In this document: positions 1,144 to 40,200 of the stretch, piece by piece
Layout of the letters: the number at the start of each line of letters is the position of its first letter
How positions within the stretch are numbered: the first letter of the stretch is position 1
NCBI GenBank assembly: GCA_011048995.1
Contig: DSCS01000006.1
Coordinates: forward strand, 1-42,167
Source of the DNA: Bacillota bacterium
GTDB taxonomy: Bacteria > Macinerneyibacteriota > Macinerneyibacteria > Macinerneyibacteriales > DSCS01
Length of the DNA stretch: 42,167 nucleotides
Direction: 5' to 3'
The notes under the pieces: model-generated
Told to the model about the DNA's origin: nothing
Seen by the model: the letters and a program-made list of their open reading frames with translations, nothing else
Databases searched by the model: none
Position numbers and translations under genes: made by a program

Positions 1144-3378
1144 ATGAAGGAAACTCTGAACGGAAATCCGGCGTTACCTATGCTGATCGAAACCACTCAC
1201 TTTTCTGTACAATATTCTTTCTTAAAAGAAATAGAGGCCGATGAAAACAAGACCCTTTTCCTTTCTCCCGGGAAACATCCCCGTCCACTGCAGTCCATCA
1301 AGCGGCTGATCATCAGTCTGCTTTATGAAGAAAACATTTCTTTGAACCAATGGGGGACTATTTTTGAAGAGGGTGGCGATACCCACGGGTTTATTGCCTT
1401 TTGCAGGGATGAACTCGGGATCGGAATGCCGGAAAGCAGCTCCTATTACACGGACAAACCCGGATTGCTGGGAGAAAAAGAGTGGCATTTGCTGGCGGAC
1501 CATCTGAGACCCGCTTTTGAGAAAAAAAAATATCTTGTGATTTTCAATTGGGGAGCCTTGGATCATCTGACTCAATACTTTATTGAGACCTTCTACAAGG
1601 ATATTCCGCTGTTGGTTATTATCTTTTCCGATCAATCCCTTGCTTTTGAACATCAGTCCTATTTACCTGATTTGAAGACAAAAGAGAAAAAACCTCCTGA
1701 AACGTCTCTGTTTGATATCTGGGGGCCGGCTGTCCCAAAAAAGATTGCTTCAACGGTACCCGCCGGAAATGAAGGGTATTCCTTTGGAGAATACACTCTC
1801 TTTTTCAGCGGTGGCAGTCTGAATGACGCGAAAGCGGGTTCTTCCATCTTGTCCGCTGTCAAAAATGAAAAGCAAGGGTATTATGACTGGCATGATCTCT
1901 ATTCTCTTCAAAAAGGACAGTTTGATTCAGCGACCCGGCATCAATATTTGAAAAAGATGAAGAAGAAACTGGATTCGAGTTTGAATCTTGATGCTTCAAT
2001 ATTTATACATCTGGAGCTTGCCGCTCTTGCTTCTGATGAATCGGAACGCCTGCTTCTTTATACCAGGGGACTTCTCCCCCTGTATGATGCTATACAGAGT
2101 TGGGAGAAGGGAGAAGAAGCTGTGCACTCTTTCAGTCCGGATCTGCTCTCTCCTCGTGAAAGAACCTATCTTCTCTATTATAAATACTACTTTGAAGTCA
2201 AACTTCAGGGTGGAGAGGACAACGGCCCAAAAATAAAAGAACTTTTCGATCTTTGCCAAAAAGAGAAATGGGCTCCGGAGTATTATGACATTCTCAGTCT
2301 TTTGTGCTACATCGCTTATATGAATTCAGATTATGATACTGTTCAAAAAAAAGCCCAATTGCTTTTGGACAGCTCTTTTGAACCCCGGAATCCGGCCCGG
2401 GATGTGGAGGCCCTGAACCTTTTGGGGGCGGTCGAACAGAATACGGGGGATCCGAAGTCGGCATTGCGTTTTTATAAAAAAGCCTATGATATCGCTGAAA
2501 AAAATAGGTTAGTCTATCGGAAAATTATGATGAACTCCAATATCGGGCTCTATTATACAGAGATGTCTCAGCCGGATAAAGCGCTTCAATACCTCAAAGG
2601 AGCTCTGTATGGCGCCCTCAGGTCAAATATTAAGATGGTATTGGGAAATGCTTACGGCAATATCGGCCTTGTCTACAAAATCAATGAAGAGCATCAAAGC
2701 GCATTGGATTATTTTACTAAAGCCCTGAATATCTTTAAACGTATTCAATACAAAAGGGGAATGTATATTGCTTACGAAAGCCTGGCTTCGACATACTATC
2801 TTTTGGGAGATGGGAAAAGCGCTCTTCTTTATTATGCGGCTCTGGAAAAGATGCTGAAGGAATGGGGAGAAAAAAGACTATTGGCTTCTGCTTGGGCTAA
2901 TTTCGGCCGAGTCTGGCTGCACTTAAGGTATAATGGGGAAAAAGCGGCACAATATCTTACTCAATCCATTGAGACAGCTATGGAGATCGGTGTATGGGAT
3001 TGGGCTGATGAGATTCCCTATCTTATGGATGCATGGCTTTTAGAGAATAATAAAGTTAAGGCAAAAGAAGCCTTTCAACTTGTGCGGCCGCATTGGGATG
3101 ATGGAGTGATATCAGATGAATTGCGCGACAGCATTAAGCTCAGGCTTCTTGGCATTAAAGCGCTGGAACAAGGATCTCATGCAAAAGAGGAATTGCTCAA
3201 GGAGACAGAACAACTTTCAGAAAATGATTCTCTTTTCTGGGACTATCAGTTTATGTTACAAATGCTTTTTGATGCCTCAACTCTTCCCCTGAAAACCCTT
3301 CAGGCACATTTCGATCAGAACCCTTCACCGGAATCCCGATATCGGTCTTATCTTTTAAAGAAGAAAAAAGAAACATAA
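1144..3378 (+). CDS. TPR-repeat protein with an N-terminal ATPase-like region
   Basis: A 744-residue soluble protein with no signal peptide. Residues about 415-610 hold at least five tetratricopeptide repeats, recognisable by the pattern A/G-x3-N-x-G-x2-Y ... A-L-x-Y/F-x-K-A (for example NIGLVYKIN followed by ALDYFTKALNIF). Such repeats bind partner proteins. The first 180 residues alternate predicted strands and helices (YLVIFNWGALDHL, LLVIIFSDQ) and recall the Walker B region of STAND/AAA-type signalling ATPases, but no P-loop is visible, so this part is probably degenerate. The start ATG lacks a ribosome-binding site and sits at the predicted transcription start. The gene converges with the kinase/cyclase gene, leaving only 4 bp between stop codons. 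That protein also has ATPase-like and TPR regions, so the two may be related or act together; this is inference. Confidence 0.75.
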   Translation: MKETLNGNPALPMLIETTHFSVQYSFLKEIEADENKTLFLSPGKHPRPLQSIKRLIISLLYEENISLNQWGTIFEEGGDTHGFIAFCRDELGIGMPESSSYYTDKPGLLGEKEWHLLADHLRPAFEKKKYLVIFNWGALDHLTQYFIETFYKDIPLLVIIFSDQSLAFEHQSYLPDLKTKEKKPPETSLFDIWGPAVPKKIASTVPAGNEGYSFGEYTLFFSGGSLNDAKAGSSILSAVKNEKQGYYDWHDLYSLQKGQFDSATRHQYLKKMKKKLDSSLNLDASIFIHLELAALASDESERLLLYTRGLLPLYDAIQSWEKGEEAVHSFSPDLLSPRERTYLLYYKYYFEVKLQGGEDNGPKIKELFDLCQKEKWAPEYYDILSLLCYIAYMNSDYDTVQKKAQLLLDSSFEPRNPARDVEALNLLGAVEQNTGDPKSALRFYKKAYDIAEKNRLVYRKIMMNSNIGLYYTEMSQPDKALQYLKGALYGALRSNIKMVLGNAYGNIGLVYKINEEHQSALDYFTKALNIFKRIQYKRGMYIAYESLASTYYLLGDGKSALLYYAALEKMLKEWGEKRLLASAWANFGRVWLHLRYNGEKAAQYLTQSIETAMEIGVWDWADEIPYLMDAWLLENNKVKAKEAFQLVRPHWDDGVISDELRDSIKLRLLGIKALEQGSHAKEELLKETEQLSENDSLFWDYQFMLQMLFDASTLPLKTLQAHFDQNPSPESRYRSYLLKKKKET

Positions 3379-3382
3379 CCGT

Positions 3383-6300
3383 TTAACTGCGTAAAGAAGC
3401 GTGGGTCGTAACAATCGTGTTTTTTCCCATCTCTTTGGCCTGCAGCAGACAATGATCTGCTTTTTGTATCAGTTCCTCAATGAGACGGGAATCTGTGGGA
3501 TAATGAGAGAGTCCGATACTGATCGTGATTTTTCTGATCAACCCCATGAGCTGAGCATGTTCGACCTGTTCTCTTATACGGTTGGCGATCAGGCGCCCGT
3601 TCGAAAGGGTCGTGTTGGGGAGAGCGACAATAAATTCATCTCCGCCGTATCGTCCGGCCAGGTCATAACTCCGGATTGTCTTCGAGATAAGTCCTGCAAT
3701 TTCACGCAAAATGGCATCGCCTCTTTGATGGCCGAAGGTATCGTTGATCCCTTTATAGTTATCAATATCGATCATAAGAAGCGAGAGGGGAAGGGGCTGC
3801 CGTTCTCCTTCACTGAAAATCAGTCCTTTCATTTTTTGCAAAAAGACATCTTTGAAATAAAGCTCTGTCAAAGGATCCCGCATGTATTTATCTTCAGAAA
3901 GGCGGTTTTGCCAATATTCGTTTAAAAAGAGTAAAAGCGTATTCAGAGTATCCCGGTTATATTTCACATTGACGTCATGGGAGCGGTCGAAATAAAGAAA
4001 AGCTTCTAAATAATTCATTTGATTGAAATCTGTTTTTTTTGCGCGTTTCGTTTTTTCTTTGGCACGGCTCCAGATCTTTTTATTGATAAGAGGAAGCATG
4101 AGAATATTTTTGATTTCAGGATGTTTGACAGTTTTTATAAAGGAGGAATCTTTGAGGTGTGAAATATATTTGTCATAAAGAGACGGTACTCCGGGGGGGA
4201 AGACTCCGGGCCGGTTGATAAAAAAAGACTCTTCTTTCAGCTGGCCGAAATGGTTTCTCACAAATAATCCGCGGTCAAAGTGGAAAAAACGGGCAAAAAG
4301 AGAAAGAAAAGATTTGAAAAAATCACTTTGGCTGAGGTTTTTTCCGGACAATTCTTTGATATCCTCAATCAATAAACTAAAGTCTTTGACGTGGAGAGCC
4401 GGGCGATTCCGGTTTTTAAATAATCGGTCGTATTCCTCAGGAAAATCCTTTTGGATGTTCTGACAAATCGGGTTGTTTTCCCTGAAAGAGGGCGGGATCA
4501 TTTTCAAGGTCTCTTTAATACGGGAAAGCTCGCATAAGTAAGTGGAGTCTCCCAAACTTTTCAGAGCTTTTGCCAGGTGCAGCCTGACTGCGGCATTAAT
4601 GAAGGGAAAAGATGAATTGTCATAAAAAAAACGGATATAACGCACAATTTTATCCGGTCTCTTATGAAAAAGGGTGTTATTCTCCAATTGATGCCAGACT
4701 CTGAGATCACTGACAGTTTTTATGCTGCCCTGTTTTGATTGATGTTCAATAAAGAAGCGGGTGGCCGATTTGATCTCGCTGTAAGGTAATATCCATGCGG
4801 CGGTCCCATAGAGGAAATCTTTAATGGTAGTGAAAGATGCGGCTCCGGCTGTTGAAAGGATTTGCGGGAGGTCGTTCAAAAAACCTTGGTGAATATCCCC
4901 GAGAAGAAGCTGCGATTTTTTGATAAAGATCTGCCGCATAGCTGTCGCATCAGATGCTTGAAATCCTTCTATTTTTTCCTTTTGTATCATAGTGTTCAGA
5001 GACTTAAGATCATCCATTTTTTTCAACGCAAGAAGACTATCTGCTAATGATATGTAGAGACTATAGCGGTATTGGATGACAAAGGCATCCTCCGTATTCA
5101 GCTGATTGATGAAATGCTCGTATTTATGATACAGAGCGTAGGCCTCTTCCGGAGGGACTGTATTGACCAGATTCAAAATGATTAAAATCTTATTCCTTGT
5201 ATTTTCTGTGAATTCTGCGAATTTTAGACCCTGATAGTAATAAACAGCTCTTTGCTGGGTATCGGGTTCATTCACGGCCAGATTATTATAAGCAATCATC
5301 AGATAGTAGAAATCTTGAAGAGTTTCCGCTTCCTGAAGGGCCAATTGAAAAGAATGACGGCTCTGTGCAGAATCTCCTTTAAGATGATAATAGTATCCGT
5401 AATAGCTATGGGCCATATAGCGGAAGCGCGGATTATCAAGCTGTTCAGTTCTATGGAGATAGACCTCAATAATCCTTTTGTAAGCCGTCAGGTTTCCCCT
5501 GTGTTCGTAATAAAACGCATAATAGGTGATCAATTTCATCCCGATATTGTCCGGGTCATCGGGCTGCTCTTTCTGAATTATTTGTGAAAGAGAGCGGCAT
5601 AAGCGGATCATTGTGTCAATGTCCTGAATGGAGTAGAAGTATTGGATCTCCGCAAGATATGCTTTAATCGCAAACTGGAAATCCACTTCGGGGATAAGCT
5701 TTTTCATCTCTTCAATGACGGGTTTCATTTCCCCGGCCCGGCTCAGGGTTAAAAGATTTTCCACGACCTCATGCAGGAGAGTCATGCGGATGTCGGGGTT
5801 CAAATGCGTTGTTTTAGCCATTTTTTTCAAGTTGGTCAGACGAATTTCCTCTTTGAGGTCATCGGCAAAGGAGATGTAAGCTAAATGGATGATTTGAGCT
5901 GTACGGGGGGGATAAGTGTCCGATGTCTTTTTGATTTCTGAATAAAGTTTTTTAATATACCAAGACAAATTGTTTTTTAACAAGGCAGAGGAAGCCTCTT
6001 TATGAACAAAAAAACAGCGGAAGAGATAGTTCATGGCCTTTTCAACATCGCCTGACCGTCCGTAATTGATAATCAAAGCGATTTTTTCCTGAGGGGAAAG
6101 CTCCGTTTCGTGTTTTTCATACAAAGCCGCTGCTTTCACGGCCAAGTGTTTTTGCTGTCCCTCAGACAATTTTTTGATCTCATTACGGATACGGGTGAAA
6201 AGGTTTTGATCGGCCAAATGGACTGTTTTTTCAGCCCCGGGAATGAAGACTCCTTCAATAATGAGATTTTGGAACAGACGTTGAAATTTTTTTCCGGCTA

Positions 6301-7795
6301 ATTCGGAAAAATAGGAAATGCGCATCGGGTTGTCCAAATAGACGGCCTGATAAAGAAGTTCTTTCAAAGCGGGATCAGACAACAGGGAATCATAAAACAA
6401 AGATCTGTTTTTTTCGGGGTCAAAAGTGGCAATAAGACGGATCAGCTCTTCATAAGGGGCTGAGAGGTCCATGTACATCAAAAAGCGCATTGCCGGGATG
6501 ATATCGATCTGCTTTATGGAACATAAATGAGAAAATTCAAGCCCTGTTAGTTCACTCATAAGATAGCGGTTGAGCGTCGAACAATAGGCCTCTTTGAATT
6601 CAGGAGTTGCAGGATGTGTGAAATCTTCGATAACTATCCAATTTTTTCCCGCGGATTCTTTGTAGAATTCTCGATTGATATTGTCATTAATGAAAAAAAC
6701 CAAATTCTTTCCTGCATGATTCTTGAGGATCTCAGAAAGGACTTCTTTACTGAAAGAATCGGCTGTGCGGATATTACGGATGATGACTGCTGTTTTTCCA
6801 GAAGCGTTGAGTCCTTCCAGAAGTCTCTCGACGATAAAACGAGCATACTTATTATGGATGTTTGAAAAAGAGTCATAGGTTATTTTTTTTAAGCTGTCTT
6901 GCAGGTTTTGATCTGCCGTGAAAATGGTTTTCAATACAGGGTCATGGAGCAGGGCAAAATAGAATTCCCGCGCAAAAGAGTGGGGGTCTCCATTCACAAA
7001 GATTTCTTTGACGTGAAGGCCGTTAATGCCCAGCCGTGGCTTAACGGATTGCATGGCCAGAGGGAAGTACTCTTCGCTGAAATTCACCATGTTATAAAGA
7101 GTAAAAGGGAAGTTCTCTTTATTGAAGGCTCTGAGATGCTCATAAAGATTATCTAAAGAGGGCTCGATCAAAGCCGGCGAAAATCCCAGCCGGCGTATGC
7201 TTTTGAGAAGTGTCAGCCCGATCTCCTCTTTGCTGATATGAGCCCGGAAATCATCCACAGAAAAGTGAAATGTTTCCTGCATCATAGCCTTAAACTCCCG
7301 GATCTCATCCTCAATATGGCCATGAGGGAAAAAGTCGATAAAGATGATCTCCTTGTCAAAAGAGATGATAATATTACCAGGAGAGAGGTCTCCGTGCCAA
7401 AAACCGTTGTAATGCAGCCATTGGACAGCGATTGTGATCTGTTCTAATATATTTTTCTTTTCATTTTTGTCCGTAAAAAGATAATTGTTTAACGTCAACC
7501 CATCGACAAATTCCATAGTGTAATAGAAGTAATCACCGTTAAAGGGGGTGTCATCCAAAAGAAAGACACGTGAAAAATCATAATATTTGGCTGTACATGT
7601 CAATGTGACCGAACGCGCATAGAGAAATTCCTGAAAAAAAGAATCCTTATTTTTGCCGTGTTTATCAGAATCAAAGAGTTTCAAGGCTTTGATCGGGGCG
7701 GCTTTGTCGTATAAGTCACGGACCTGATAAATGATACCGTACTCACCTGTTCCGATTTCTTTGATGATTTCGTATCGACCGTTGATTGATTTCAT
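3383..7795 (-). CDS. Multidomain signalling protein: Ser/Thr-kinase-like, degenerate ATPase, TPR, GAF, GGDEF diguanylate cyclase
   Basis: A 1470-residue cytoplasmic protein. Residues 8-220 are kinase-like: glycine loop IGTGEYG (14-20), ATP-binding Lys39 in ALK, catalytic loop HGDLSPGN (134-141; His-Gly-Asp replaces the usual His-Arg-Asp) and Asp154 in DFF in place of DFG. The key Lys, Asp, Asn and Asp are kept, so activity is possible. Residues about 260-560 resemble the STAND/AAA ATPase region of large bacterial kinases but lack a clear P-loop. A helical TPR-like region follows to about 1120, then a GAF-like domain (about 1140-1300). The C-terminus is a diguanylate cyclase with intact GGDEF (1384-1388) and, exactly five residues before it, an RSYD (1375-1378) matching the RxxD product-inhibition site. 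It should make c-di-GMP from GTP. The kinase-to-cyclase architecture parallels known kinase/ATPase/GAF/histidine-kinase proteins with the output domain exchanged. The individual domain calls are firm at both ends and tentative in the middle. Confidence 0.9.
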   Translation of the reverse strand: MKSINGRYEIIKEIGTGEYGIIYQVRDLYDKAAPIKALKLFDSDKHGKNKDSFFQEFLYARSVTLTCTAKYYDFSRVFLLDDTPFNGDYFYYTMEFVDGLTLNNYLFTDKNEKKNILEQITIAVQWLHYNGFWHGDLSPGNIIISFDKEIIFIDFFPHGHIEDEIREFKAMMQETFHFSVDDFRAHISKEEIGLTLLKSIRRLGFSPALIEPSLDNLYEHLRAFNKENFPFTLYNMVNFSEEYFPLAMQSVKPRLGINGLHVKEIFVNGDPHSFAREFYFALLHDPVLKTIFTADQNLQDSLKKITYDSFSNIHNKYARFIVERLLEGLNASGKTAVIIRNIRTADSFSKEVLSEILKNHAGKNLVFFINDNINREFYKESAGKNWIVIEDFTHPATPEFKEAYCSTLNRYLMSELTGLEFSHLCSIKQIDIIPAMRFLMYMDLSAPYEELIRLIATFDPEKNRSLFYDSLLSDPALKELLYQAVYLDNPMRISYFSELAGKKFQRLFQNLIIEGVFIPGAEKTVHLADQNLFTRIRNEIKKLSEGQQKHLAVKAAALYEKHETELSPQEKIALIINYGRSGDVEKAMNYLFRCFFVHKEASSALLKNNLSWYIKKLYSEIKKTSDTYPPRTAQIIHLAYISFADDLKEEIRLTNLKKMAKTTHLNPDIRMTLLHEVVENLLTLSRAGEMKPVIEEMKKLIPEVDFQFAIKAYLAEIQYFYSIQDIDTMIRLCRSLSQIIQKEQPDDPDNIGMKLITYYAFYYEHRGNLTAYKRIIEVYLHRTEQLDNPRFRYMAHSYYGYYYHLKGDSAQSRHSFQLALQEAETLQDFYYLMIAYNNLAVNEPDTQQRAVYYYQGLKFAEFTENTRNKILIILNLVNTVPPEEAYALYHKYEHFINQLNTEDAFVIQYRYSLYISLADSLLALKKMDDLKSLNTMIQKEKIEGFQASDATAMRQIFIKKSQLLLGDIHQGFLNDLPQILSTAGAASFTTIKDFLYGTAAWILPYSEIKSATRFFIEHQSKQGSIKTVSDLRVWHQLENNTLFHKRPDKIVRYIRFFYDNSSFPFINAAVRLHLAKALKSLGDSTYLCELSRIKETLKMIPPSFRENNPICQNIQKDFPEEYDRLFKNRNRPALHVKDFSLLIEDIKELSGKNLSQSDFFKSFLSLFARFFHFDRGLFVRNHFGQLKEESFFINRPGVFPPGVPSLYDKYISHLKDSSFIKTVKHPEIKNILMLPLINKKIWSRAKEKTKRAKKTDFNQMNYLEAFLYFDRSHDVNVKYNRDTLNTLLLFLNEYWQNRLSEDKYMRDPLTELYFKDVFLQKMKGLIFSEGERQPLPLSLLMIDIDNYKGINDTFGHQRGDAILREIAGLISKTIRSYDLAGRYGGDEFIVALPNTTLSNGRLIANRIREQVEHAQLMGLIRKITISIGLSHYPTDSRLIEELIQKADHCLLQAKEMGKNTIVTTHASLRS

Positions 7796-12114: not shown

Positions 12115-12142
12115 TTTTGTCGTTTATTTTCATAAGGTGGCC

Positions 12143-12174
12143 AAAAAGAGAGGGTTTCTCCCTCTCTTTTTTTT
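12143..12174 (+). terminator. Rho-independent terminator of the aldolase operon
   Basis: The stem GAGAGGG (12148-12154)/CCCTCTC (12160-12166) with a 5-nt loop is followed by an uninterrupted run of eight T and preceded by A residues that extend the pairing. Confidence 0.9.
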
Positions 12175-12214
12175 ATTAACTGAAACAAATATCAATAAAT
12201 ATCTGTCTTATATA

Positions 12215-12273
12215 TTGACAATGTTAATATGTGTAGTCATAATGTTAATGAAAGGAGGGAATATGATTAACAT
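12215..12273 (+). promoter_or_regulatory. Promoter with a three-copy repeat operator for the DUF2089 operon
   Basis: TTGACA (12215-12220), 17-bp spacer and CATAAT (12238-12243) form a good promoter. The 8-mer ATGTTAAT occurs at 12221-12228 and again at 12242-12249, and its inverse ATTAACAT at 12266-12273. The centres are 21 and 24 bp apart, close to two helical turns. The copies cover the spacer, the -10 end and the first codons, as expected for an operator. Autoregulation by the DUF2089 protein is an inference. Confidence 0.5.
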
Positions 12274-12619
12274 ATGCCCGGTTTGCGGAGAACCTTTGAC
12301 AGTTACAGAACTTCATTGCGACGGTTGCGGGACCTCATTGTCGGGGCGTTTTATGCCCGACAGGGGATGCGCCCTTTCTCCCGAGATCATGGAATTTATT
12401 AAAGTCTTTATTTATGCTGAAGGGAACATTAAACAGGTCGAACGCCTGATGAATTGTTCCTATCCTAAAGTCAAAAATCTCTTGAAAAAAGCCAAGGAAG
12501 AATTGGATGTCAGCTCAAAAAACGAATCAATGTCGTCAGAGCAAAAAAATAAAATCCTGGAGCAGCTGAACAAAGGGGAGATCACCTTTGATGAAGCCAT
12601 GGAAAGGCTGCAAGAATAG
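12263..12619 (+). CDS. DUF2089 family protein (zinc ribbon plus helix-turn-helix-like domain)
   Basis: A 118-residue protein. The N-terminal zinc ribbon has two CxxC pairs (CPVCGEPL and CDGCGTSL, residues about 5-22). The middle (residues about 36-75; EFIKVFIYAEGNIKQVER, then SYPKVKNLLKKAKEEL) looks like the DNA-binding helices of DUF2089, which resemble a sigma-factor or helix-turn-helix fold. The last 28 residues form a separate short module (ILEQLNKGEITFDEAMERL) found again in two downstream genes. A longer frame starts at 12137, but ATG 12263 follows AAAGGAGGG and lies downstream of the promoter, so it is preferred. It is probably the regulator of its own four-gene operon. Confidence 0.85.
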   Translation: MINICPVCGEPLTVTELHCDGCGTSLSGRFMPDRGCALSPEIMEFIKVFIYAEGNIKQVERLMNCSYPKVKNLLKKAKEELDVSSKNESMSSEQKNKILEQLNKGEITFDEAMERLQE

Positions 12620-12627
12620 GAGGTATT

Positions 12628-13527
12628 ATGGAATTTGAAGTCAAAGGGGATAAGCTGAAAATCGACATATCCCTTTTCAGGGGGGATATCTCTTTTGAGC
12701 CAAGCAAAGGGAAAAAACTGTGCGTGGAGTTCCCTGATCTCCGAAAAGGAGCCCTTGAAGCCTTTATTGATGTTTCCTACAAAGAAGAAGAAGGATTGAA
12801 GGTCATTGAGAAAAAAAACGGATTACCTCTCAGCCGACAAAGGGAAAGTAATATGGTACTTTCTCTGCCCGATCTCCCCCTGGAAGGCCGTGTGATTTTG
12901 GAGAAGGGTGATTGTGTCATTCACGATTCTCTGGAATGGAACGGGAAGATCGAAGTCCGTCTGGGAAATCTCACAGTTAAAAAGATGTTTACAGGAGAGC
13001 TCACGGCCAAAGTCATCAAAGGCGATCTTTTTATTGAAGAGATAACGGGACGATTGAAGGCTGTCACCGTCAACGGGGATATTCTGGTCAAGGGCGGGAG
13101 AATAACCGCATTAAACTGCAGGACAGTCGCCGGAGATATCTCTGTGACCGGGGATTTTGTTTCCCAAGAGCCCATGAAAGCCGTCTCTGTTTCAGGAGAT
13201 GTTCTCCTCCATGCTCGGCACTATGAAGGCGGTCAGGAGATTCAAGCGGTCTCGGTGGGTGGAGATGCCAAAATAGAAGGAGATGTTCCCCAAGAGAAGA
13301 AAAAAGAAGTTAAAACAGGGCCGAAATTCGCAGGAAAAAAAATCTTTTCCCTATTAAAAATGTTCGAAAGATTTCCTTTTCATGGAAGAAATGAAGGGGC
13401 GCAAGTCGAAGTGGAGAAAAAGGATGATGAGGAGGAGATGAATGTAGGGACTGTATTGAAAATGCTGGAAGAGGGGCGGATTACGGCAGAGCAGGCTGAG
13501 AAACTGATAAAAGCTCTAAAGGAGTGA
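12628..13527 (+). CDS. DUF4097-like adhesin-fold protein with C-terminal SHOCT-like module
   Basis: A 299-residue protein without a signal peptide. Residues about 95-225 form a run of short repeats with the pattern V-x-G-D-I/V-x-V/L (VNGDILVKG, VAGDISVTG, VSGDVLLHA, VGGDAKIEG), typical of the right-handed beta-helix of DUF4097/YvlB-type proteins. A basic linker (about 228-255) precedes a C-terminal helical hairpin, GTVLKMLEEGRITAEQAEKLI, like the module at the end of the DUF2089 protein. YvlB/LiaX-like relatives belong to cell-envelope stress operons in Bacillota; a similar role here is inferred. The AGGAGG site lies 9 bp after the preceding stop. Confidence 0.75.
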   Translation: MEFEVKGDKLKIDISLFRGDISFEPSKGKKLCVEFPDLRKGALEAFIDVSYKEEEGLKVIEKKNGLPLSRQRESNMVLSLPDLPLEGRVILEKGDCVIHDSLEWNGKIEVRLGNLTVKKMFTGELTAKVIKGDLFIEEITGRLKAVTVNGDILVKGGRITALNCRTVAGDISVTGDFVSQEPMKAVSVSGDVLLHARHYEGGQEIQAVSVGGDAKIEGDVPQEKKKEVKTGPKFAGKKIFSLLKMFERFPFHGRNEGAQVEVEKKDDEEEMNVGTVLKMLEEGRITAEQAEKLIKALKE

Positions 13528-13529
13528 TT

Positions 13530-13955
13530 ATGGCTGGGTTGATATTTTTTATATTGTATATTCCGTTTTATTTTACAAAAGGGATTATTCTCAAAAGGAA
13601 TGGCCTTCAGGCCGTTATGACAATCACCGTTTTGATTCTGGGTTATCTATTGTGGACGGTCGCCCTTTCTTTTTCAGGCTGGGTTGAAATGGGGTTTAAA
13701 CTCTTTCTCATCCTGGAGTTATTATTATACGCACTTCGCCTTTTTGGGATAACGGCTCCGCTGCCGGTTTTCTTCTCGAGATTTTCTTTTGAGCAGGATG
13801 AAGTCCGTATTCAGTATACTTTGTTCAAGCCCTTATTCCTTTTAATAGCGGATGTGGTGTTGCTGATTAAAAGACTTCCGGTGATCCATCTTGATGATGT
13901 GGTTGAGATCGATGTGAAGGTCAACGATAAACAAATGGTTTTAATTAAACTTTAA
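13530..13955 (+). CDS. Small membrane protein of unknown function
   Basis: A 141-residue protein that I do not recognise. It has three hydrophobic segments in the first 75 residues (about 2-18, 27-46 and 56-75) and a further hydrophobic stretch near 100-112. The C-terminal 30 residues are polar with alternating strands (HLDDVVEIDVKVNDKQMVLIKL), resembling a small cytoplasmic PH-like or beta domain. GTG 13524 is in frame, but AAAGGAG (13518-13524) is spaced correctly for ATG 13530, so the shorter form is preferred. It is embedded in the DUF2089/DUF4097 operon and is probably the membrane component of that system. Confidence 0.65.
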   Translation: MAGLIFFILYIPFYFTKGIILKRNGLQAVMTITVLILGYLLWTVALSFSGWVEMGFKLFLILELLLYALRLFGITAPLPVFFSRFSFEQDEVRIQYTLFKPLFLLIADVVLLIKRLPVIHLDDVVEIDVKVNDKQMVLIKL

Positions 13956-13966
13956 GGAGGGATAAC

Positions 13967-14359
13967 ATGGATGAAAAGAAAAAAATCCTGGAAATGCTCA
14001 AAAAGGGGAAAATCACAGTGGAAGAAGCAGAAAGGCTGCTCAATGCTTTGGGCTTGGATTCTGAAAAATCTGTGAAGAAAGTGACTCCTGCGCCGGGAAA
14101 AGGAGTAAGAGGAAAATTGCGTATTGAAATCGATTCCAACGATGGTGATAAAGTACGCATTGCCGTCCCGCTCAGGATGGCCGCCATGATCAAGGGGATG
14201 ATCCCCAACCAGGCAAAAGAGCAGATGTCTGCGGAGGGTGTTGATATTAACACTATTTTGGAAGGCCTGAATGAGGGACTGGACTTTGTCGATGAGGATA
14301 TTGTGAATATACAGAGCAGCGACGGAGATACCGTTCGCATTTTCGTTGAGAAACAATAA
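13967..14359 (+). CDS. Small protein with N-terminal SHOCT-like module
   Basis: A 130-residue acidic soluble protein. Residues 3-28 (KKILEMLKKGKITVEEAERLL) repeat the helical hairpin module found at the C-termini of the two other soluble proteins of this operon. Residues about 48-65 (LRIEIDSNDGDKVRIAVP) and 112-130 (IVNIQSSDGDTVRIFVE) are two copies of a beta-hairpin motif, DGDxVRI, flanking a helical centre. This resembles the small partner proteins of YvlB-type operons. The function is unknown. It has a strong AAGGAGGG site 11 bp after the membrane protein gene and is the last gene of the operon. Confidence 0.7.
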   Translation: MDEKKKILEMLKKGKITVEEAERLLNALGLDSEKSVKKVTPAPGKGVRGKLRIEIDSNDGDKVRIAVPLRMAAMIKGMIPNQAKEQMSAEGVDINTILEGLNEGLDFVDEDIVNIQSSDGDTVRIFVEKQ

Positions 14360-17897: not shown

Positions 17898-19997
17898 GTG
17901 AAACACTATTCGCTTTTTGTCGCTTTGACCCTGTTTTCTCTTTTTACGGCCGGCTGCCGTTCCACCGAAAATCTGTTGCCTTCTCCTCCACGGGCGGTAC
18001 GGGAGGCCCATATCACAGAAGTCCATGGTTATACGCTGACGGATCATTATTACTGGATGCGTCAAAAAGGGGATCCTCGTGTCAAGGCCTACATTGAAGA
18101 TGAAAATCGCTACACCGAACGCGTTATGGCCGGGACGAAATCTCTTCAAAAAAAATTATACAAAGAGATGGCTGCCCGTATCACAGAGAACGACAGGAGT
18201 GTTCCTGAAAGAGAAGGCCGGTATGATTATTATTCAAAAAATGAAAAAGGCAAAGAGTACCCGATCTATTGCCGGAAAAAGGCAGAAGAAGGAGCCCGGG
18301 AAGAAATCCTGATTGACGTCAATGAATTGGCCCGCGGCCTGGATTATTTCAGTATCGGCCTGATGAGTGTCAGCCCCGATGAAATGAAATTGGCCTACAC
18401 GTATGACATCAACGGCGCCGAGGAGTATCGGCTGGCCGTTAAAGATCTCCGAAACGGTGCTATCATAGAAGAAAGGGATATTTCTGTACCGGACTTTCAG
18501 TGGATGAAGGACAGTAAAACCTACCTTTACACAGTCAATGATGAAACCTGGCGTCCCTCGCAGCTTTACCGTCATTCTATAGGAGAGGATGAAGATGAGC
18601 TCTTGTATGAGGAAAACGACGGACGCTTCTGGATGTGGATTTCTGAATCGTCTGACAAATCAATCCTTTTTATGGGTTTGGGAAGTAAGACGTCTACCGA
18701 GATTCATTTTCTCTCTGCCGACGATTTACAGGGGCATTTGACCTGTTTTTCTCCGCGGAAACAAGACGTGGAGTACTATTTGAATGCTCATGACGGTTAT
18801 TTTTATATTTTTACCAATGAGCAGGCTCCCAACTTTAAATTGGAACGCACCGCTATGAAAGAGTTCGGCCGAAGCGATTCCAGAGAAGCTGTTATCCCAC
18901 ACAGTGACGCTACATTGACGGATTACTATCTCTTTAGAAACTATTTAGCTTATTTTATCCGAGAAGAGGGGGTGAGCGCACTTGTGATCCGAAGTCTGGG
19001 TGATCAAGGGGAATACCGGGCTGTTTTCCCTGATCTATATAATTCTTTTTATCCCGGAAGAAATAAAAATTACGACTCGGATTTACTGCGGGTATCGGTT
19101 TCTTCAATGATCACCCCCACTGTCGTATATGATCTTGATATGAAAAGCGGGGACCTTATTGCGCGCAAAGAACAAAAAGTGAAGGGATATGACCGCAATG
19201 AGTACGTCACGGAGCGTGTATTGGTGTCTGCCCGTGACGGGTCCGAGATCCCTGTCATCTGGGTTGCGAAAAAAGGCTTTTCAGGACCCCGCCCATTGTA
19301 TCTTTATGCTTACGGGGCTTATGGTGATTATAATGACCCCTATTTTTCTTCCACCCGGCTCAGCCTTTTAGACAGGGGGTTTATTTTTGCCATGGCGCAG
19401 GTCCGGGGAGGAGGAGAAAAGGGGATCGATTGGTATAAAGAGGGCAAATTGCTTCATAAAAAAAATACGTTTTATGATGTCATCGATTGTGCAGAGTTTC
19501 TGATTCATTCTGAATACACGACTTCTGAAAAACTGATCCTCTCCGGCGGGAGTGCAGGGGGGCTTCTTGTCGGGGCAACGGTGAATATGCGTCCTGATCT
19601 GTTTTTCGCCGCTGTCGCCTCGGTCCCCTTTGTCGACGTCGTTAATACGATGCTGGATTCGACTCTGCCACTGACTGTAGCGGAGTATGAAGAGTGGGGG
19701 GATCCTATGAACCGCGAATATTTCGACTATATCCGCTCTTATTCTCCATACGAAAATATCCATAATGTTTCTTACCCTCATATGCTGATCATCGGCGGGC
19801 TGAATGACCCCCGTGTTCAATATTGGGAGCCTTTAAAATGGACAGCCCGGCTTCGTGAAGAAACCGGCGGTGATTCGGTCATTCTTTTGCGCATGAATAC
19901 CGATTCGGGCCATATGGGGACTTCCGGACGTTATGCCTGGCTGAAGGAGTCGGCTTTTGAATATGCGTTTATTCTAAGCCGTCTCGGAATGTATTAA
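17898..19997 (+). CDS. S9 family peptidase (oligopeptidase B/prolyl oligopeptidase type), lipoprotein
   Basis: A 699-residue serine peptidase with a lipoprotein signal peptide ending in the lipobox FTAGC (lipidated Cys at about residue 20). An N-terminal beta-propeller (about 50-420) is followed by the alpha/beta-hydrolase domain: AYGAYGDYNDP, nucleophile Ser552 in GGSAGG, Asp637 in GGLNDPRVQYWEP and His672 in SGHMG. The family cleaves short peptides after basic residues or proline. The propeller limits it to oligopeptides. Most oligopeptidase B enzymes are cytoplasmic, so membrane anchoring is notable and suggests a role in extracytoplasmic peptide use. The start is GTG with GGAGG 5 nt upstream. 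Its stop shares a TTAA with the convergent cyclophilin gene. Confidence 0.92.
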   Translation: MKHYSLFVALTLFSLFTAGCRSTENLLPSPPRAVREAHITEVHGYTLTDHYYWMRQKGDPRVKAYIEDENRYTERVMAGTKSLQKKLYKEMAARITENDRSVPEREGRYDYYSKNEKGKEYPIYCRKKAEEGAREEILIDVNELARGLDYFSIGLMSVSPDEMKLAYTYDINGAEEYRLAVKDLRNGAIIEERDISVPDFQWMKDSKTYLYTVNDETWRPSQLYRHSIGEDEDELLYEENDGRFWMWISESSDKSILFMGLGSKTSTEIHFLSADDLQGHLTCFSPRKQDVEYYLNAHDGYFYIFTNEQAPNFKLERTAMKEFGRSDSREAVIPHSDATLTDYYLFRNYLAYFIREEGVSALVIRSLGDQGEYRAVFPDLYNSFYPGRNKNYDSDLLRVSVSSMITPTVVYDLDMKSGDLIARKEQKVKGYDRNEYVTERVLVSARDGSEIPVIWVAKKGFSGPRPLYLYAYGAYGDYNDPYFSSTRLSLLDRGFIFAMAQVRGGGEKGIDWYKEGKLLHKKNTFYDVIDCAEFLIHSEYTTSEKLILSGGSAGGLLVGATVNMRPDLFFAAVASVPFVDVVNTMLDSTLPLTVAEYEEWGDPMNREYFDYIRSYSPYENIHNVSYPHMLIIGGLNDPRVQYWEPLKWTARLREETGGDSVILLRMNTDSGHMGTSGRYAWLKESAFEYAFILSRLGMY

Positions 19998-21829
19998 AGG
20001 CGCTCTTTTGATGCCAGGATCCGGGCCTCAATGATGGTGTCTCCCGGCTCGATTCTGTATACGGTATCCATTCCCTTAATGATCTTGGCAAAGAGTGTGT
20101 AACGGCCGTCCAGGTGAGGGCGGGGAGCAAGGGTAATGAAAAATTGAGAGCTTCCTGTATCTTTTCCTCTGTCGGCTATGCCGACCATCCCGGGCTCACG
20201 GTAAGAGAGAGGGGAGTATTCGGCCTTGATGAGGGGGAAACTGCCGCCCCATCCGTCCCCATGGGGGTCTCCGGCTTGTATAACATGATTCAAAGCCACA
20301 CGGTGAAAAGAGATCCCTGAGTAGAATCCGCCTTTGACCAGGCGGATAATGTTTTCAACAGTATGGGGGGCTTCATCTCCGAAGCATTCCATTATGATAT
20401 CTCCTTTTGCTGTCCTGAAGAGGATAACCCAGTTTCTGTTCCTGTATTTGGGAAAAGAAGGCGGGGTATCCTGCTTCATCAGGGAGAGAAGTTCCGGGTC
20501 TTTTTCCAGGGCAAGCAGTTTGTCCGTCAGCTCTTTTTCTCCTTCTTGGCGAATAAGATCAAAAAGAAAATAACGGAGATCCCTGACGGGTTCTTCAGGG
20601 TACCGGTTCAGAAGGGTCTTCTGGAAAAGAGCCGGTTCGTCCTGCAGAAGAAGATAGCCGGTAAGGCGCACGGTAAAGTCGGGGTCCTCAAGCGCAGCTT
20701 GGGCAAATTCTTTTTTGCGGCCGGGGTGGAGACGGCTTAAGGCGTCATAGGTGTTTCTTCGGGTGATATGATCATTTTGCCCCAAAAGCCTCTGCTCCCA
20801 TTCCGGGGTCAGAAGAAAGAAATAGTTATCCGGGTTCCGGGAAAAGGCGCGGAGAAAAAGAGCGTCATCTTTAAATGTATTGATCAGATCAAGCCCGGCT
20901 TTGTTTCGGAAAAGCATGCCGTAAAAGGACGTTTCTCTCAGATAAGAAGGGTAAGAGGGTGAAGCATATTCTTTTAAGAGAGAAAGGCGGTTTTCATTTT
21001 CAAGGAGGGGGAGAAGCTCCAACGAAGAGAGGGAGCGCTGATATAAAAAATCCCGTAAAGCAGGATAGCGGGCGCATTGGGTCAGATAGCGGAATTTCAG
21101 CAGTGCGGGAAAACGGTCAAAATCGTGCAACAGCGCTTTCAGACTATTTTCGTCATGAAGAAGAGACATGTAATAATAATCCCGCAGGATATCTTCAAGC
21201 GTGATCAGACCCGGCAGGTCTTTTTCACGAGACGGCGGGATTCCCCATTGGGAGAGGGCATAAGCATAAGCCCGGGATAGTTCCGGCCCCAATAGGGACA
21301 AAAGGGCGGAGCGGGCCTCTTCTTTGTCTTCAGCAGAAAAGTCCAGCGAATGGGCCATATTCCCCAGGGCTGTAAAAAGAACATCATCGGTCCTTTCATC
21401 TGTTCCGAGAAGTTCAAAAAGAAGAGAGATGTCTTTCGGGCCGGCCATAAAAAAAAAGGTCTCATAGAAGAGGCTGATATTTTCAGGCGGTTCTTCGGAA
21501 AGCAGTTGAAAAAGCTTTGGCTTCAGGGCGGGAAAGTAACGCAGGCCGAAAAGGGCTTCGTTTTTGATATAAGGGTCTTTTTCTTCCAAAAAGGCCGCCC
21601 AATAGCGGGAGGCCCCGTGTGCATGGCCGATCCTGTAAAAGGCCCTGAAAGCCGCTTTACGGATAAAAGGGATAGGGTGATCCAAAAAAGCGCTGAGTCG
21701 GGGTGTTATACGGCGCTGCAATTCGAGTTTTTTAATAATACGATACTCATTCGCACTGTCTTTAAAAAGGAAGGCTAAGGCTAAAAAAAGAATAAGAGCA
21801 GAAAATAAAAGAGTTCGGCGCCGGATCAC
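19994..21829 (-). CDS. Membrane-anchored peptidyl-prolyl isomerase (cyclophilin) with helical-repeat N-terminus
   Basis: A 611-residue protein. Residues about 4-22 form a signal anchor. Residues about 40-440 are leucine-rich helices with HEAT-like elements (HPIPFIRKAAFRAFYRIG, DPYIKNEALFGLRYFP, DPDFTVRLTGYLLL). The last 150 residues are a cyclophilin domain: EAPHTVENIIRLVKGGFY, the catalytic Arg in SFHRV, the conserved Gln in VIQAGDP, GSSQFFITLAP and LDGRYTLFAKI. The Phe at cyclophilin A position 60 appears as His. It should catalyse proline isomerisation in folding proteins outside the cytoplasm; the repeats probably dock clients. GTG start, overlapping the preceding gene as GTGA. The cyclophilin call is firm; the repeat type is tentative. 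Confidence 0.88.
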   Translation of the reverse strand: MIRRRTLLFSALILFLALAFLFKDSANEYRIIKKLELQRRITPRLSAFLDHPIPFIRKAAFRAFYRIGHAHGASRYWAAFLEEKDPYIKNEALFGLRYFPALKPKLFQLLSEEPPENISLFYETFFFMAGPKDISLLFELLGTDERTDDVLFTALGNMAHSLDFSAEDKEEARSALLSLLGPELSRAYAYALSQWGIPPSREKDLPGLITLEDILRDYYYMSLLHDENSLKALLHDFDRFPALLKFRYLTQCARYPALRDFLYQRSLSSLELLPLLENENRLSLLKEYASPSYPSYLRETSFYGMLFRNKAGLDLINTFKDDALFLRAFSRNPDNYFFLLTPEWEQRLLGQNDHITRRNTYDALSRLHPGRKKEFAQAALEDPDFTVRLTGYLLLQDEPALFQKTLLNRYPEEPVRDLRYFLFDLIRQEGEKELTDKLLALEKDPELLSLMKQDTPPSFPKYRNRNWVILFRTAKGDIIMECFGDEAPHTVENIIRLVKGGFYSGISFHRVALNHVIQAGDPHGDGWGGSFPLIKAEYSPLSYREPGMVGIADRGKDTGSSQFFITLAPRPHLDGRYTLFAKIIKGMDTVYRIEPGDTIIEARILASKERL

Positions 21830-38575: not shown

Positions 38576-40111
38576 TTATTTGTTTTTATGGACAACGACC
38601 CTGTTCCGTCCGTATTTTTTCCCCTGATAAAGGGCCTCATCAGCCTCTTTAATGCATTGATCGACTGAAGGGCTTCGGTCGTAGACAGAGACGCCGATAG
38701 TGACTGTGATAAAGATCTTGTTTCCGCAGGACGCAACAGGAGCTTCCTCAATAACCGAGCGGATCTTTTCTGCCAGTTTTGCGGCTCCGTCCTTACCGGT
38801 CCTGGGAAGAAGGATGAGAAACTCCTCACCGCCCCAACGGCTGATGATATCGATTTTTCTCAAATGTTTTGTTAAAAGGCCTGCAACAGAGACGAGGACC
38901 CTGTCACCGCAGTCATGTCCATATGTATCGTTAATGACTTTGAAATGATCGATATCGATAAGCAGAAAAGAGAAAGGTTCGTTGCTTCGTTGTGCCCTGT
39001 AATGCTCCAGTTTGATCTTTTCCATAATGTTACGCCGATTTGAAAGTCCCGTTAGCGGGTCTGTTTGAGCCAGCTGTTCCATCCGGAGATAGGCCGTCTG
39101 CAGCTCTTCATTTTGACTTTTGATGATACTGTTTGCCTTCTCCAGATCAATGTTTTTCAACCGGTAGATCTCCAGTTCCTTTTCCTTTTTGTCGATCTCA
39201 TGACGAGCTTCGATATCGGTGATTTTTTTAGAAAGGGTCTGGCTGAAGATCATATCCCGTAAATGATAAGCCTGGATAAGCCTGGAATAGGCTTCCTGAA
39301 AATGTTGCCGCTGGGCATGAAGCTCTGAAAGATTGATGAGGTATTTGAGTTCTGTCAGACGGGAGGAGGATTGCTTGGCATGTTCAAACCCATCTTGCAG
39401 AAAAGTCTCGGCTTCCTCGTAAAGGCCTTCTTTCATAAAGACTTCTCCGATATTATTCATGACGGTGATAATACCTTCGGGATAATCCAAATAATTATAG
39501 ATCTGCATGGCTTCAAAAAAATACTTCAACGCGTCTTCAAAGTTAAAGAGCTTGGAGTGGATTTCTCCCAGTTTGTTATTGACATCGCCGATCAGGATCT
39601 GATAATGCCGCTTATCGGATTCTGTTTTCCGTTCATCGGCTTTCAGAAGGGATTCCAGGGCCCTGTGAAGATCCCCGTTATTAAAATACATAGATCCCGC
39701 ATAATAAGAACATAAAGCGACGCCGTTGGAGTCACGGGCCTCTTCAAACAGTTGTCCGGCCCGGAGAAAATGGGATTCAGCGTTAGAATAATCCATGATC
39801 GCTTCATAAAGTTTGCCGATCTTGATAAGAATAGTTGCGGCTCGGGGTTGTTTTCCGCGGCTGAGAAAAATATTGAGAGCGTTTTGCCAATGATCCAGGG
39901 CATAGTTAAAGTTTTCGATTTCAAAGAAGGCATCTCCTGCGGTTTCAAAAAGTTCCGCTTGAGTCAGATCGTCCTCGCAGGGGAGCGTCAAGCCCAGGTT
40001 ACAGTACTCAATGGCTTTTTGAGGAGAGTTTTCCTTTTCGTAAAGGGCCATTTTCAGGAAATTCTGGGGCGTATTGACTTTGTTTTTACTTTTTTCTCCG
40101 TTATCAGTCAT
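38576..40111 (-). CDS. TPR-coiled-coil-GGDEF diguanylate cyclase
   Basis: A 511-residue cytoplasmic protein. Residues about 20-300 hold about seven tetratricopeptide repeats (for example AGDAFFEIENFNYALDHW, IGKLYEAIMDYSNAESHF, NNIGEVFMKEGLYEEAE). A coiled coil (about 295-345: ARHEIDKKEKELEIYRL) joins them to the GGDEF domain. The active-site motif is GGEEF (427-431), and RKID (418-421), five residues before it, fits the RxxD inhibitory site. It should make c-di-GMP, with activity set by what the TPRs bind. A GTG three codons upstream is in frame; ATG 40111 has AAGGTGAT at the right distance. The arrangement is common in spirochaetes and related bacteria. Confidence 0.93.
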   Translation of the reverse strand: MTDNGEKSKNKVNTPQNFLKMALYEKENSPQKAIEYCNLGLTLPCEDDLTQAELFETAGDAFFEIENFNYALDHWQNALNIFLSRGKQPRAATILIKIGKLYEAIMDYSNAESHFLRAGQLFEEARDSNGVALCSYYAGSMYFNNGDLHRALESLLKADERKTESDKRHYQILIGDVNNKLGEIHSKLFNFEDALKYFFEAMQIYNYLDYPEGIITVMNNIGEVFMKEGLYEEAETFLQDGFEHAKQSSSRLTELKYLINLSELHAQRQHFQEAYSRLIQAYHLRDMIFSQTLSKKITDIEARHEIDKKEKELEIYRLKNIDLEKANSIIKSQNEELQTAYLRMEQLAQTDPLTGLSNRRNIMEKIKLEHYRAQRSNEPFSFLLIDIDHFKVINDTYGHDCGDRVLVSVAGLLTKHLRKIDIISRWGGEEFLILLPRTGKDGAAKLAEKIRSVIEEAPVASCGNKIFITVTIGVSVYDRSPSVDQCIKEADEALYQGKKYGRNRVVVHKNK

Positions 40112-40200
40112 AAGAATCACCTTTTCTTCGATACTATACCCGTAAATCAGAAAAATCTATAAAAAAAAAGCCGTCAACGATGCGGAATACGAAATATGTC

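Follow-up and report, generated by a model that had tools for sequence, protein, structure and literature searches.

The locus at positions 3383 to 7795 of contig DSCS01000006.1 (the window, i.e., the whole 42,167-nucleotide stretch that was analyzed, contig C15 of genome G000) encodes a 1470-residue protein with a kinase-like domain at its N-terminus and a GGDEF diguanylate cyclase domain at its C-terminus. It raises the question of whether the former phosphorylates, or only binds nucleotide, to control cyclic di-GMP (c-di-GMP) synthesis by the latter. Generally, c-di-GMP and Ser/Thr kinase signaling are treated as separate systems. Here, the kinase-like domain keeps the residues of the ATP site but has lost its activation segment, and we read it as a cis-acting, ATP-dependent switch or sensor of the cyclase rather than a kinase for outside substrates, a proposal that we hold with about even confidence. 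The gene runs on the minus strand from an ATG start at 7795 to 3383; a plus-strand reading was rejected, since stops occur throughout it. The first-pass annotation had the coordinates right and left the strand unstated. The source genome, from the Mcinerneyibacteriota, is 1.88 Mb in size and 99.7% complete, and was compared with two others of the phylum: a separate metagenome-assembled genome (MAG) of the same genus (G001) and Candidatus Mcinerneyibacterium aminivorans (G002).

A Pfam search, which had been proposed as a check, placed Pkinase within residues 1–220, at 8–155 (E 4e-14, above the cut-off), covering profile positions 1–142 of 263. The best structures found by Foldseek for this part were PknB and PknA, over ~160 columns, and a kinase profile search matched PrkC-type kinases and StkP. 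The glycine loop GTGEYG, Lys39, Glu56, His134, Asp136, Asn141, and Asp154 are all present, so that fold, profile, and ATP-site residues are those of a Hanks-type (PknB-like) kinase, with HGD in place of HRD and DFF in place of DFG. Lys39, HGDLSPGN (134–141), and Asp154 (DFF), as well as Arg1375xxAsp1378 and GGDEF (1384–1388) of the cyclase part, lie exactly where the first-pass annotation had put them. However, the activation segment and a complete C-lobe, as in Hanks-type kinases (APE, subdomains VIII–XI), are lacking. In the family members recognized by Pfam, the Pkinase match ends at profile position 140–158 of 263, compared with 253–258 in intact kinase relatives, and in the AlphaFold2 (AF2) model a helix begins at residue 161, five residues after DFF. 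Since the family profile runs from 158 to 228 where an intact relative (L068) runs from 168 to 296, ~58 residues are missing after DFG. The Arg of HRD normally contacts the activation loop; thus, its replacement in HGD fits the missing segment.

What remains of the domain is nevertheless conserved. Among 18 family kinase-like domains, most of them only 18–38% identical to that of the 1470-residue protein, Lys39 is found in 18/18, Glu56, the HxD Asp, and Asn141 each in 17/18, and the DFG Asp in 16/18. The alignment and the model together indicate that the ATP-site core is under constraint, minus the segment that carries the activation loop and the substrate-binding P+1 loop in canonical kinases. 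Two members depart from this pattern, L050 (Glu56 to Asp, HGE, NLN) and L042 (N141S, KFN); the L031/L045 pair has lost the catalytic loop, and the glycine loop is gone in about half of the members. At the other extreme, the kinase domain of L040 is near-canonical, with both glycine loop and DFG intact. The losses of catalytic-loop or DFG residues and of the glycine loop would suit a pseudokinase, i.e., a domain that is only structural or protein-binding and in which ATP has no role. Yet unless the domain binds nucleotide or metal, an invariant Lys39 and a nearly invariant HxD Asp are difficult to account for at such low overall identity, and in the 1470-residue protein itself all of these residues are intact; we therefore consider a pseudokinase unlikely.

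Conversely, an active Ser/Thr kinase could phosphorylate its own chain (the GAF-like domain, linker, or GGDEF domain) or a partner and so switch the cyclase, which would be a true kinase-to-c-di-GMP link. Besides the full set of ATP-site residues, this is favored by the nearest structures, which are those of active bacterial kinases, and by comparison with the orthologue in G001 (JAFGWL010000067.1, Candidatus Mcinerneyibacteriota), a colinear protein about 55–56% identical overall. Its kinase part (residues 1–160, 72%) is nearly as conserved as the GGDEF part (77.5%), these two ends being the best-conserved of the protein; identity is 47% for residues 161–235, 62% for the ATPase-like region, 35–49% for the TPR stretch, and 53% for the GAF-like domain. 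However, the activation segment and P+1 loop are missing, homologues without the catalytic Asp retain the rest of the protein, and neither PP2C_2, the sole phosphatase family tested, nor FHA gave a match at E 0.01 in the phylum, although positive controls worked. Phosphorylation of outside substrates looks less likely on account of the lost segment and of the negative searches for these eraser and reader families, and an active kinase seems to us possible, if rather doubtful. The direct protein-kinase-to-second-messenger link suggested at first pass thus goes beyond the evidence, given a Pfam match that lacks the post-DFG segment and a phylum in which the searches for PP2C_2 and FHA were negative; between phosphorylation and nucleotide binding alone, the balance leans toward nucleotide binding or action in cis.

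The output domain is well defined. It matches Pfam GGDEF at residues 1306–1459 (E 7.2e-40), the NCBIfam diguanylate cyclase domain TIGR00254 (E 3.3e-44), and, in Foldseek, diguanylate cyclase structures. The signature, the metal- and guanine-binding positions (Asp1343, Asn1351, and Asp1360), and an RxxD inhibitory site (I-site) five residues upstream of GGDEF are present, and both GGDEF and the I-site are intact and conserved across the close set. Accordingly placed among cyclases by these residues, the protein is predicted to synthesize c-di-GMP. An inactive cyclase serving as a c-di-GMP receptor through its I-site would find a precedent in the degenerate signatures of L031/L045 (YMGEEF, YMGDEF), but the signature, metal, guanine, and I-site positions here match those of active diguanylate cyclases, making this very improbable. 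A histidine kinase output was rejected, as neither HisKA nor HATPase matched the protein at E<=1.

Between the two ends, the domain order given in the first-pass annotation (kinase-like, degenerate ATPase-like, TPR-like, GAF-like, GGDEF) proved right, the ATPase-like reading being supported by profile–profile comparison and the GAF-like one more weakly. Searched alone, the 1470-residue protein had no Pfam match to TPR, GAF, or AAA, and the ATPase-like and GAF-like regions by themselves returned nothing significant from Pfam or the PDB. The ATPase-like region is homologous to the AAA_16 domain of intact kinase–AAA_16 relatives and hence to STAND/AAA_16 NTPases (hhalign probability 98.4, E 4.1e-15), but it has no Walker A motif. 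Since the alignment starts only downstream of the Walker A columns, the P-loop segment appears to be absent rather than merely changed. The TPR stretch is visible in the AF2 model, with Pfam TPR matches only in paralogues, while the Pfam-negative GAF-like part shows GAF topology in the model and a moderate hhalign match to the GAF domain of relatives (E 3.1e-5, probability 72.9). No transmembrane-like segment was seen, the highest mean hydropathy over 19 residues being 1.13. The models given to Foldseek had modest confidence, and only its kinase and GGDEF matches were relied on.

Under the preferred reading of a cis-acting switch, the protein would be a cytoplasmic, soluble receptor, a single chain with c-di-GMP as its product. 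Its Hanks-type kinase domain, stripped of the activation segment and with ATP-site residues kept, would lie N-terminal to a P-loop-less, STAND-derived scaffold and act in cis through ATP binding, possibly with hydrolysis or self-phosphorylation. The TPR array may bind partners and the GAF-like domain a ligand; together with the kinase-like domain and the scaffold, they would set the arrangement of the GGDEF domains, probably dimeric, through the linker helix. The GGDEF domain would then turn GTP into c-di-GMP, and the RxxD site would provide product inhibition. HD-GYP proteins occur in 3/3 genomes of the phylum, which makes c-di-GMP breakdown plausible. Several observations count against this scheme. 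Every phosphotransfer residue is present in the 1470-residue protein, so that true kinase activity is possible. ATP use need not be general, since catalytic residues are gone in L050 (HGE, NLN) and L042 (KFN). Five sequences underlie the AF2 model of residues 1–640, which has a local confidence score (pLDDT) of 69 and a predicted TM-score (pTM) of 0.42. Finally, a search of the three genomes for PilZ receptors was negative at E 0.01, although positive controls worked.

The protein belongs to a paralogous family. G000 contains eight members including this one, all with a kinase-like front and a GGDEF back and about 1470–1720 residues long; the others lie on C1 (two), C34 (two), C29, and C3, and one appears to be split between C49 and C17. 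The halves of the split member, at the contig ends (L032, L033), match residues 1–588 and 939–1602 of one 1609-residue G001 protein. The longer paralogues carry an additional C-terminal domain past GGDEF, where L068 has a second GAF. Family members account for 8/15 GGDEF matches in G000 and for all Pkinase matches above the Pfam cut-off in the three genomes; one match below it lies on C34 of G002 (E 3e-4, 567 residues). In the L031 (4226-9283) and L045 (125-5179) pair, kinase catalytic loop and GGDEF signature are degenerate together. The short form also occurs in 4/4 examined genomes of another phylum, including a WOR-3 MAG and one labeled Desulfuromonas sp. SDB; the latter (L055, LKUE01000268.1) groups with the phylum of the WOR-3 MAG, and its label may be wrong.

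In the GGDEF tree, the family forms a clade (100/99 support) apart from the other sampled GGDEF domains, including those of the same genome. In the kinase tree, a branch (95/74) separates its domains from the rest, and the two trees agree in their main subgroups. This agreement fits a single ancestral kinase–GGDEF fusion followed by duplication. An independent origin of the L068 fusion is not claimed: its GGDEF domain falls outside the family in the tree, yet a shared clade is not rejected by the approximately unbiased test (p 0.25). We tentatively suggest that the Hanks-type kinase fold of this phylum left phospho-signaling, became a built-in ATP-dependent regulator of diguanylate cyclase, and then multiplied into paralogues that contain roughly half of all GGDEF domains in the cell. 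A second diguanylate cyclase of the window (38576–40120, minus strand; 514 residues, TPR and GGDEF, E 9e-49) has no kinase part, and the GGDEF tree does not place it within the family clade.

The block comprising an ABC transporter, a TPR protein, the kinase–GGDEF gene, a MATE transporter, and the next genes is kept in G001. A fusion produced by assembly or annotation was rejected, since this separate MAG has the gene in the same order. Within the block, the TPR neighbor (45%) and the kinase–GGDEF gene (55%) are the least conserved, the others being 57–91% identical. The fast-evolving TPR neighbor matches the family profile with its TPR part (E 2e-23). Elsewhere in the window, a short ILExLxKGxITxEEAExLL-like motif occurs at one end of three nearby genes (12137–14359, plus strand), and a HEAT-repeat protein ends in a cyclophilin-type isomerase domain (19994–21829, minus strand). 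The features of the locus are collected in Table 1.

Table 1. Positions in the window of the kinase–GGDEF gene, its parts, and its TPR neighbor.
Feature	Position	Strand	Basis or remark
TPR neighbor (744 aa), convergent with kinase–GGDEF gene at a distance of 4 bp	1144..3378	+	pair conserved in G001
Whole gene, kinase-like / STAND-like / TPR / GAF-like / GGDEF	3383..7795	-	1470 aa; 56% orthologue in G001
Kinase-like domain, residues 1–160 (N-lobe, catalytic loop, DFG region)	7316..7795	-	Pfam, Foldseek, kinase profile
Glycine-rich loop GTGEYG, residues 15–20	7736..7753	-	residue inspection
Lys39, VAIK-type lysine	7679..7681	-	18/18 in family
Catalytic loop HGDLSPGN, residues 134–141, non-RD	7373..7396	-	residue inspection, conservation
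DFF replacing DFG, residues 154–156	7328..7336	-	residue inspection
Remnant kinase C-lobe, residues 161–230, helix from 161, without activation segment	7106..7315	-	AF2 model, end of Pkinase profile match
STAND/AAA_16-like alpha/beta region without P-loop, residues 231–475	6371..7105	-	hhalign
Helical, winged-helix-like region (putative fold), residues 476–541	6173..6370	-	AF2 secondary structure
TPR-type helical array, residues 545–1127	4415..6163	-	AF2 helix pairs; Pfam TPR in paralogues
GAF-like domain, residues 1133–1280	3956..4399	-	AF2 topology; hhalign
Linker helix, GAF-like to GGDEF, residues 1281–1303	3887..3955	-	AF2 model
GGDEF diguanylate cyclase domain, residues 1304–1463	3407..3886	-	Pfam, TIGR00254, Foldseek diguanylate cyclase structures
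RxxD I-site RSYD, residues 1375–1378	3662..3673	-	residue inspection
GGDEF signature, residues 1384–1388	3632..3646	-	residue inspection

The clearly recognizable kinase domains of this little-known phylum sit only inside cyclase proteins, and the family spans stages from a near-canonical kinase (L040) to an apparently dead one (L031/L045). One family thus makes it possible to test directly what is left for a kinase domain to do without its activation segment: phosphorylate, hydrolyze, sense ATP, or serve only to hold the protein together. Were the cyclase set by ATP, c-di-GMP would reflect the energy state of the cell without a separate sensor, and the 1470-residue protein is a good test case for a kinase fold controlling a second messenger.

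The relatives outside the family were drawn from 386 sampled genomes. A full-length profile search scored two candidates per genome, and its 6/386 are the strongest matches only. Separately, 35 large kinase open reading frames (ORFs), a non-random set chosen by size and similarity to the family kinase, were examined. Among these, the output was a sigma-54 activator in 14/35 and GGDEF in 1/35, while any histidine-kinase family ranked below the 25 commonest families and hence had <=3 members; in this sample, the expectation of a histidine kinase as the usual C-terminal domain was not borne out. L068 (G110; 1961 residues, Pkinase-AAA_16-TPR-GAF-GGDEF-GAF) has the same domain order as the 1470-residue protein, with colinear family-profile matches along kinase, AAA_16, TPR, GAF, and GGDEF, but differs in its full-length kinase (profile positions 1–258 of 263) and intact Walker A motif (GAAGIGKS). 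L069, L071, and L076 share the kinase-AAA_16-TPR-GAF front end and scaffold, but their kinase is intact and a sigma-54 activator replaces GGDEF. On C88 of G110, an ORF of about 2230–2390 residues (L062, 2-6688) contains two tandem kinase-AAA/TPR units, at residues 1 and 1202.

The combination of kinase and GGDEF is not new. In 2005, Krupa and Srinivasan (PMC1262709) listed a Clostridium thermocellum protein of 1826 residues (gi|23020879) with a kinase, six TPRs, and GGDEF, and suggested a role in c-di-GMP signaling. By its description, it has the layout found here, i.e., an N-terminal STY kinase, TPRs, and a C-terminal GGDEF in one large chain; the available text of that source is silent on a missing activation segment and on paralogous expansion. 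Nothing closer was found in a literature to which access was partial. The architecture is thus already known, and three features were unreported within that partial search: the loss of the activation segment, a scaffold lacking the P-loop, and the confinement of recognizable kinases to one family in a phylum. The "dual protein kinases" described in the same available text, also likened by description only, resemble our protein in joining an STY kinase and GAF in one chain but have a histidine kinase output; the C-terminal histidine kinase of such kinase/ATPase/GAF hybrids is absent here.

A more distant likeness, in mode of action, is to the animal receptor guanylyl cyclases, in which a kinase-homology domain also lies upstream of a nucleotide cyclase, with an S-helix in addition. 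They are unrelated overall, being membrane receptors that make cGMP and lack a STAND/TPR/GAF-like middle. Their kinase-homology domain is probably an allosteric nucleotide-binding domain (PMC1592074). If the proposal made here is true, the kinase-derived cyclase regulator of this phylum would be its bacterial parallel.

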